The notes beneath the pieces were generated by a model, which worked only from the letters and a program-made list of their open reading frames with translations, was not told where the DNA came from and ran no database searches. DNA of 64,000 nucleotides from Halococcoides cellulosivorans (lineage in GTDB: Archaea; Halobacteriota; Halobacteria; Halobacteriales; Haloarculaceae), in NCBI RefSeq assembly GCF_003058365.1, contig NZ_CP028858.1, positions 1,612,001 to 1,676,000 of the forward strand, given 5' to 3'. The position numbers and the translations under genes were made by a program. Shown piece after piece: positions 20,473-48,834 of this stretch (positions are counted from its first letter, which is position 1; the number at the start of each line of letters is the position of its first letter).

Positions 20473-20592
20473 CATACGGCGAGCGGAGCGAGCCGTTTCA
20501 CTGAGCGCGAACGCAGTGAGCGCTCAGGTGTTTTTGGTCCAGATTTTTGCGAGGAGGGTTCGCGAAGCGAACCCTCCGACGTAAAAAGGTGG
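20473..20592 (-). repeat. Structured tRNA-flanking element, copy 1
   Basis: In the sense of the tRNA it begins about 5 bases after tRNA-Gln with CCACC and a T5 run (20583-20587). It contains a perfect 11-bp hairpin with triloop (20553-20563/20567-20577), the conserved stretch around TCTGGACCAAAAA, and an 8-bp hairpin CTGAGCGC/GCGCTCAG with loop GAACGCAGTGA (read on plus, 20501-20527). A GGC...GCC segment closes the far end. A second copy at 48546-48664 shares the backbone but has different stem sequences. Confidence 0.85.
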
Positions 20593-20597
20593 TCTAG

Positions 20598-20670
20598 TAG
20601 TCCCGGGAGGATTCGAACCTCCGTCGTTGCCCCCAGAAGGCAACAGGATTGGCCACTACCCCACGGGACT
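20598..20670 (-). tRNA. tRNA-Gln (CUG)
   Basis: A 73-base minus-strand cloverleaf: acceptor AGTCCCG/CGGGACT, T arm GGAGGTTCGAATCCTCC, anticodon stem TTGCC/GGCAA with loop TTCTGGG, anticodon CTG. CCA is not encoded and there is no intron. A TTTTGTAAC box lies about 20-30 bases upstream. A T5 run 10 bases downstream is a likely terminator. Confidence 0.93.
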
Positions 20671-48545: not shown

Positions 48546-48664
48546 CATACGGCGGCCTTCGGCCGCCGTTTCACTGAGCGCGAACGCAGTGAGCGCTCAG
48601 GTCTTTTTGGTCCAGATTTTTCGAGGAGCGGTCGCCGAAGGCGACCCGACGACGAAAAAGGTGG
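48546..48664 (-). repeat. Structured tRNA-flanking element, copy 2
   Basis: It matches copy 1 in order: CCACC with T5, a triloop hairpin (48630-48636/48640-48646, GGTCGCC/GGCGACC), the TCTGGACCAAAAA stretch, CTGAGCGC/GCGCTCAG with loop GAACGCAGTGA (48574-48600), and a terminal dyad GGCGGCC/GGCCGCC (48551-48567). Stem sequences in the first and last hairpins differ from copy 1 yet stay complementary. Confidence 0.85.
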
Positions 48665-48668
48665 TTGA

Positions 48669-48728
48669 GCGGATTCGAACCGCGGTCACTCCGCGCTGAC
48701 GCGCTCCGTTCCCTGGTATCGAATCCGC
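48669..48728. repeat. tRNA T-arm-like sequence and its inverted copy
   Basis: GCGGATTCGAACCGC (48669-48683) repeats 15 bases of the tRNA-Val T arm (minus-strand sense) about 102 bases away. Its first 10 bases also recur inverted at 48719-48728 (TCGAATCCGC). This is a tRNA 3' fragment directly before the structured element, as expected for an attachment-site remnant. Confidence 0.5.
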
Positions 48729-48761
48729 CGGGCTTCCAGTTCGCTCCCTGCGGTCGCTCGA

Positions 48762-48834
48762 TGGGTCCGGGCGGATTCGAACCGCCGACCCCTTCCTTGT
48801 AAGGGAAGTGTCATAACCACTAGACCACGGACCC
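48762..48834 (-). tRNA. tRNA-Val (UAC)
   Basis: A 73-base minus-strand cloverleaf: acceptor GGGTCCG/CGGACCC, T arm GGCGGTTCGAATCCGCC, anticodon stem CTTCC/GGAAG with loop CTTACAA, anticodon TAC. No CCA or intron. The DUF192 gene starts 61 bases beyond its 5' end on the other strand. Confidence 0.93.

Follow-up and report, generated by a model that had tools for sequence, protein, structure and literature searches.

Two copies of a non-coding element were analyzed in a 64,000-nucleotide stretch of the genome of Halococcoides cellulosivorans (contig NZ_CP028858.1, positions 1,612,001 to 1,676,000; hereafter, the window), together with related elements of other haloarchaeal genomes. Both copies are members of a repeat family, named E, whose structured elements are about 120 nt long. 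Inspection of the window sequence located copy 1 at 20473..20592 and copy 2 at 48546..48664, where the original prediction had placed them, and both were found after tRNA 3′ sequence, as had also been predicted. The natural reading direction of E is the minus strand, which is the strand of both tRNA genes. Copy 1 starts 5 nt past the gene of tRNA-Gln(CTG) (20597..20670), which is intact and has no duplicate of its 3′ end; copy 2 is located approximately 97 nt past the gene of tRNA-Val(TAC) (48762..48834), after a partial copy of the 3′ half of that tRNA.

On the minus strand, E is represented by the order CCACC-TTTTT-hp1-AAAAA-TCTGGACC-AAAAA-hp2-GTGAAACGGC-hp3-GCCGTATG, where hp1, hp2 and hp3 are hairpins; CCA and T5 pair with A5 and TGG, enclosing hp1, and form the long hairpin H1. 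Copy 1 has inner arms of the ACGTCGG..TCGC type. The outer pairs of its H1 helix are CCA (20590-20592) and TGG (20539-20541), and the T5 tract (20583..20587), the putative terminator of the tRNA strand, pairs with A5 at 20544-20548. The hairpin hp1, enclosed by H1, is found at 20553..20577 (GGAGGGTTCGC-TTC-GCGAACCCTCC), hp2 at 20501..20527 (CTGAGCGC..GCGCTCAG) and hp3 at 20476..20496 (ACGGC..GCCGT). The block AAAAA-TCTGGACC-AAAAA (20531..20548) reads TTTTT-GGTCCAGA-TTTTT on the plus strand and contains the oligo-T tracts of that strand, on which hp2 lies upstream of them. Copy 2, with the commonest type of inner arms, contains a T5C tract (48655..48659), likewise the putative terminator of the tRNA strand, which pairs with A5 at 48617-48621, hp1 at 48630..48646 (GGTCGCC-TTC-GGCGACC), the block with the opposite-strand oligo-T tracts at 48604..48621, hp2 at 48574..48600, identical in sequence to that of copy 1, and hp3 at 48549..48569.

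About 16 recognizable copies of E were found in the 2.72-Mb genome of H. cellulosivorans, namely, 11 behind tRNA genes, one behind a pseudo-tRNA-Leu, and the others behind phoU-like, ileS and argF genes and one further gene (names partly assigned by eye). A loose pattern search of this genome gave too many chance matches and was not used. Copy 1 has 92% identity over 107 nt with the copy behind the tRNA-Pro gene at G000:812657. The covariance-model search proposed along with the original prediction was carried out with a model of 66 positions (R1), for which ten copies from several genera, all of them unaltered, were used, and was positive in 107 of 116 Halobacteriales genomes. The copies per genome number 1 to 39, which are lower bounds, since 45 candidates were scored in each; the species with copies include Haloferax elongans and H. 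profundi. When 84,980 species of bacteria and archaea were scanned for an exact pattern, 104 stretches were detected, and among the 80 matches listed all belong to Halobacteria. No Rfam 15 family was above the gathering threshold for E, and no description of E was found in the literature covered, which leaves out most subscription papers; apparently, the family is undescribed so far. In the IMG/VR viral contigs, a loosened pattern had four matches, none of them E-like, and a consensus search of plasmids gave no match, although blastn with short variable elements in 7 Gb is a weak test; the absence of E from viruses and plasmids can be stated only tentatively.

RNA folding gave z-scores of −6.2 (copy 1) and −6.0 (copy 2) for the minus strand and −5.9 and −4.6, respectively, for the plus strand; for each copy and each strand, none of 200 shuffles was as stable. 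The arms of hp1 vary jointly, being GGTTCGC/GCGAACC in copy 1 and GGTCGCC/GGCGACC in copy 2, and the outer helix of CCA/TGG and T5/A5, absent from the original prediction, covaries too. Among 112 distinct copies, 98.5% of the cells are standard pairs, versus 83.6% after shuffling, and two-sided changes were found at 12 of 16 pairs (214 two-sided cells versus 68 shuffled). None of 500 shuffles matched the real alignment on any of five measures, and shifting the pair partners abolished the covariation signal. This alignment was fitted to the model; therefore, the outer helix was tested again on copies extracted by a regular expression. The left arm differs from CCA in 55 of these copies, and the right arm is fully complementary in 42 of the 55, as compared with a mean of 14.6 and a maximum of 24 in permutations; the variants include CGA/TCG, GCA/TGC, GGA/TCC, GAA/TTC and CAA/TTG. 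At one orthologous site (L365 and L366), hp1 is wholly replaced, and the T and A tracts are retained. Accordingly, the compensatory changes in hp1 and in the outer helix bear out the earlier claim that structure, not primary sequence, is kept.

The covariation of H1, including its outer CCA/TGG helix, and the folding z-scores near −6 would also be expected of a functional RNA, that is, a 3′ untranslated region or processing module formed by read-through from the upstream tRNA or gene, with H1 as its conserved fold. This explanation is improbable: the T5C tract is upstream of the fold by construction, the gap of 0–4 nt between stop codon and E has no room for a promoter, the palindrome is equally stable on the other strand, and Rfam holds no match. 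For want of space for its own promoter, the RNA processing module suggested in the original prediction is unlikely. An independent small RNA gene was rejected on the same ground, and a tRNA processing module was rejected because most copies follow protein genes.

The genes in the 104 named loci were called by a simple codon-usage scorer, and the calls are approximate; the samples include related species, which are not independent, and in the pattern sample CCACC and TGG are fixed by design. Pattern copies with both neighbors typed are located in 41 convergent, 55 tandem and 4 divergent spacers, while the background spacers of at least 100 bp (n = 361) comprise 79 convergent, 161 tandem and 121 divergent ones; a few further pattern copies fall within a called gene or at the edge of a locus. 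Divergent spacers are avoided in the second sample as well (8 of 103). Three classes of position were found. In class A, CCACC starts 0–4 nt 3′ of a stop codon or tRNA; in class B, the hp2/hp3 side lies on the stop codon of a gene of the opposite strand; in class C, CCACC is located 39–46 nt upstream of a start codon, from which a TATA-like tract separates it. In the pattern sample, 26 copies begin no more than 4 nt from the end of a tRNA or from a stop codon, and the stop codons of convergent genes are most frequent 17–60 nt beyond the core, which is the length of hp2 or of hp2 and hp3 together. The same classes were recovered in the independent covariance-model sample. In the class C copies L206, L204, L191, L227 and L230, at most about 10 nt lie between the end of E and a TATA-like box, and the spacing of 39–46 nt to the start codon is very narrow.

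The upstream neighbor is a tRNA in 12 of the 103 copies of the covariance-model sample, so that tRNAs are over-represented, but approximately 90% of the copies in other genomes follow protein genes. The neighbors checked there are mostly core genes, for example, ileS, argF, spt5 and etfA, and E behind tRNA-Gln was found only in H. cellulosivorans among 23 genomes compared. The general placement rule for E is the 3′ ends of genes; the preference for tRNA genes is real, extreme in H. cellulosivorans and mostly local. The original description of a tRNA-flanking element thus fits about 12 of the 16 copies of this genome, which follow a tRNA or pseudo-tRNA, but not the bulk of the copies elsewhere. 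At G000:1684388 (L065), a pseudo-tRNA-Leu fragment is followed by E, and the arrangement is an apparent partial duplicate of the tRNA-Leu(GAG) and E locus about 5 kb off (G000:1679454).

It was also suggested that E borders AT-rich foreign genes, and clustering at island edges was named as a point to check. AT-rich neighbors were found beside both window copies, in parts of 19–20 kb and 47.8–48.6 kb, but, given the mostly core neighbors in other genomes, such bordering does not hold in general. Together with the tRNA association in this genome, the AT-rich neighbors would agree with E being an attachment or recombination target for elements integrating at tRNA genes. This possibility is very remote and already largely contradicted: most copies elsewhere are located between core genes, enrichment at island edges is unsupported, and no integrase or island was seen beside the copies examined, although no systematic search was made. 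An island attachment site was rejected, since the tRNA-Gln beside copy 1 is intact and lacks a duplicated 3′ end and since copies elsewhere follow protein genes.

Intergenic RNA 3′ ends of Haloferax volcanii follow a T stretch and then TC, and termination at such signals was confirmed in vivo by reporter tests (PMC7237163). The haloarchaeal termination signal TTTTTC is present on both strands of E. T5 is nearly invariant, and C follows it in 100 of 110 cells; on the opposite strand, hp2 is followed by CTTTTT-N8-TTTTTC. The signal thus directly follows the gene on one side and a hairpin on the other, at the ends of transcription units, and its presence on both strands at such ends makes a bidirectional terminator the best-supported role of E. 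Judging from these sequence features, E is probably (with a probability of approximately 0.58) a Halobacteria-specific portable bidirectional transcription terminator, or boundary element, which would propagate as a recombination-prone dispersed repeat. This role, indicated by position and oligo-T tracts, was not among the three guesses made originally.

According to the proposed mechanism, a transcript of the sense strand, from a protein gene or tRNA, would reach CCACC-TTTTTC a few nucleotides past its 3′ end and stop there, and a convergent transcript of the opposite strand would cross hp3 and hp2 and stop at TTTTT-N8-TTTTTC. The palindromic core H1 (CCA..TTTTTC [hp1] GAAAAA..TGG), kept by compensatory change, may act as read-through RNA or as DNA. 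New gene ends would gain copies of E, the native spacer being replaced up to the stop codon or promoter, and on the hp2/hp3 side E is associated with tandem duplication of the last 34–155 nt of the neighboring gene.

Such duplications follow a one-sided rule. In class B, the last 34–155 nt of the gene, stop codon included, recur as a direct copy beyond E. This copy was found in 47 of 51 class B copies and in none of 22 copies of class A only in the pattern sample; in the second sample, it was found in 21 of 29 copies of class B, 0 of 42 of class A, 0 of 11 of class C, 0 of 4 belonging to both A and B, and 11 of 23 unclassified copies, as compared with 3 of 544 mismatched flanks used as a null. 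Among 560 genes without E downstream, three had such a copy, and all three then proved to be followed by a variant E. Full tandem units of gene end and E are present at L111, L170, L196, L239 and L252, and the genes with duplicated ends include ileS, argF, spt5, etfA and a gene of an iron–sulfur protein. In the direction of the gene, the junction consists of AAAAAGGTGG, the three gene nucleotides preceding the copied stretch, either a single extra nucleotide (20 cases) or two (6 cases), and the copy; of the two samples, only the one with CCACC ends shows this detail clearly, and in the other it is weak. Different species have an identical junction and extra base. Each duplicate is nevertheless closest to its own gene and not to the duplicates of other species, which suggests concerted evolution or repeated renewal. 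At L206:5833-5990 (gene direction), an E-like sequence has CTAAATTTTGCG..CGTAAAATTTAG where E has its T5/A5 stem, and a gene-end copy still follows; it is a possible structural variant.

To our knowledge, no known process accounts for this one-sided link. It is conceivable, though on balance doubtful, that E marks a new DNA- or RNA-templated process of haloarchaea, which would copy the last 34–155 nt of a gene beyond a palindromic element and leave the gene intact with a spare 3′ end. In that case, the regular junction (GGTGG, three gene nucleotides, one or two extra nucleotides) and the strict strand asymmetry would indicate a dedicated mechanism and not ordinary transposition or slippage.

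The distribution of E among congeners is polymorphic. In one genus, G143, G020 and G152 contain E with an identical junction, and G001, whose flanks are up to 96% identical to those of G143, contains a single copy of the 49-nt repeat without E. Since two other congeners have the same junction, the simplest reading of G001 is loss of E, presumably by recombination between the repeats, with the gene left intact. In another genus, two of ten species have E next to one and the same stop codon, and the other eight lack it; in two of the eight, a native T-run (TTTTTTC or TTTTTCC) follows that stop codon at a distance of about 12 nt. Four of ten species have a class C copy beside a conserved promoter, and partial copies were found in others. 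Comparison of the downstream part of L286 (query 429-540) across the genus g26 showed that these genomes are very rich in other short hairpin repeats, around GCTCACTCCGTTCGC and GAGCGAAGCGAGC; they occupy the hp2/hp3 slots of E, as if hairpins were exchanged from a common pool.

This polymorphism, the near-identical copies at unrelated loci within one genome, the restriction of E behind tRNA-Gln to one genome of the 23, the direct repeats of 34–155 nt at 92% of the hp2-side stop-codon copies and the one or two junction nucleotides, which look non-templated, would all suit a selfish non-autonomous mobile element. Inserting at gene 3′ ends and promoter edges with a long, variable target duplication, it would use oligo-T merely to make its insertions tolerable. 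We regard this as a less likely account than the terminator. No transposase or terminal motif linked to E was found; the element is absent from IMG/VR apart from pattern matches that are not E-like, and from plasmids in the weak test described above. Sense-gene copies lack the repeat (0 of 22 and 0 of 42), so that a single target-duplicating insertion mechanism does not fit all copies, and the closest empty site, G001, is better read as a loss. Of the mobile element or recombination target proposed originally, the occurrence at new unrelated sites and the tight link to gene-end duplications stand, but a terminator role is better supported.

Among known repeats, pairs of bacterial DNA uptake sequences are dispersed repeats which double as two-way terminators between convergent genes; they are short fixed words, whereas E keeps a structure and is linked to gene-end duplication. 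Miniature inverted-repeat transposable elements (MITEs) share terminal repeats with a transposon and have short target duplications of fixed length; E, with duplications of 34 to 155 nt, does not fit this description, although no search for transposon ends was made. Similar to E, the elements SMR-A and SMR-B of Haloquadratum walsbyi are non-coding haloarchaeal elements of about 110 bp; they have inverted-repeat ends and tens of copies per genome, and their mobilization is unexplained (PMC3119063). They insert without target duplication, in PATEs or IS605 elements (SMR-A) or in other mobile elements (PMC3119063). E differs in its location at gene 3′ ends, its one-sided duplications and its occurrence in nearly all Halobacteriales: a direct repeat was found in 47 of 51 and 21 of 29 hp2-side copies, and the targets are the ends of core genes and tRNAs. 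H1 is palindromic and its outer end is CCA, but hp2 and hp3 lie outside it, and no clear terminal inverted repeats of the whole element were found. With PATEs and IS605-type elements E shares near-terminal palindromes and heterogeneous copies; for PATEs, unlike E, target duplication is not expected (PMC3119063). No link of E to an IS605 transposase was found, although no direct search was made. E also resembles the oligo-T terminators of H. volcanii, where a T stretch and C also stand right behind genes and hairpins are located upstream of some sites (PMC7237163). Those signals are short and independent (PMC7237163), whereas E is a two-strand composite of about 120 nt with conserved blocks and covarying helices, recognizable across genera.

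Several observations weigh against the terminator role. H1 is located beyond both stop points and would rarely be transcribed if both terminate, so that the covariation of hp1 and of CCA/TGG is not explained by termination alone; it calls for a role of H1 in read-through RNA or in DNA, for example, in foldback, copying or recombination, and the duplications point to the DNA role rather than the RNA one. The duplication rule itself is not predicted by a terminator. Copy 2 escaped a generic scan for terminators, because the spacing between hairpin and T tract is 3–4 nt.

The spacer between tRNA-Val and copy 2 (48666..48761, minus strand) contains inverted and direct partial copies of the T arm and 3′ end of tRNA-Val and represents a different palindromic element. 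In the genome of H. cellulosivorans, the 3′ terminal 22 nt are repeated downstream of 20 of the 55 tRNA genes; the T arm, in inverted form, often lies in front of the repeat, and arrays of two to three units were found. The recurring apex motifs are CAGGGAACG..GAGTGACCG or CCTGGAAGTCG..CGTCTTCC; besides the window site, such palindromes are located at G000:3917, 675453, 1263796, 1870232 and 2032564. Apparently, the ends of tRNA genes harbor a second family of palindromic elements.

Transcription termination in archaea is little understood, and the current picture does not include composite terminators of conserved structure. The presence of E in nearly all haloarchaea, where one covariance model suffices for its detection, makes a set of predicted ends of transcription units readily available. 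The link to gene-end duplications, restricted to one side of E, is a sharp and falsifiable regularity, which bears on the remodeling of gene C-termini and spacers.
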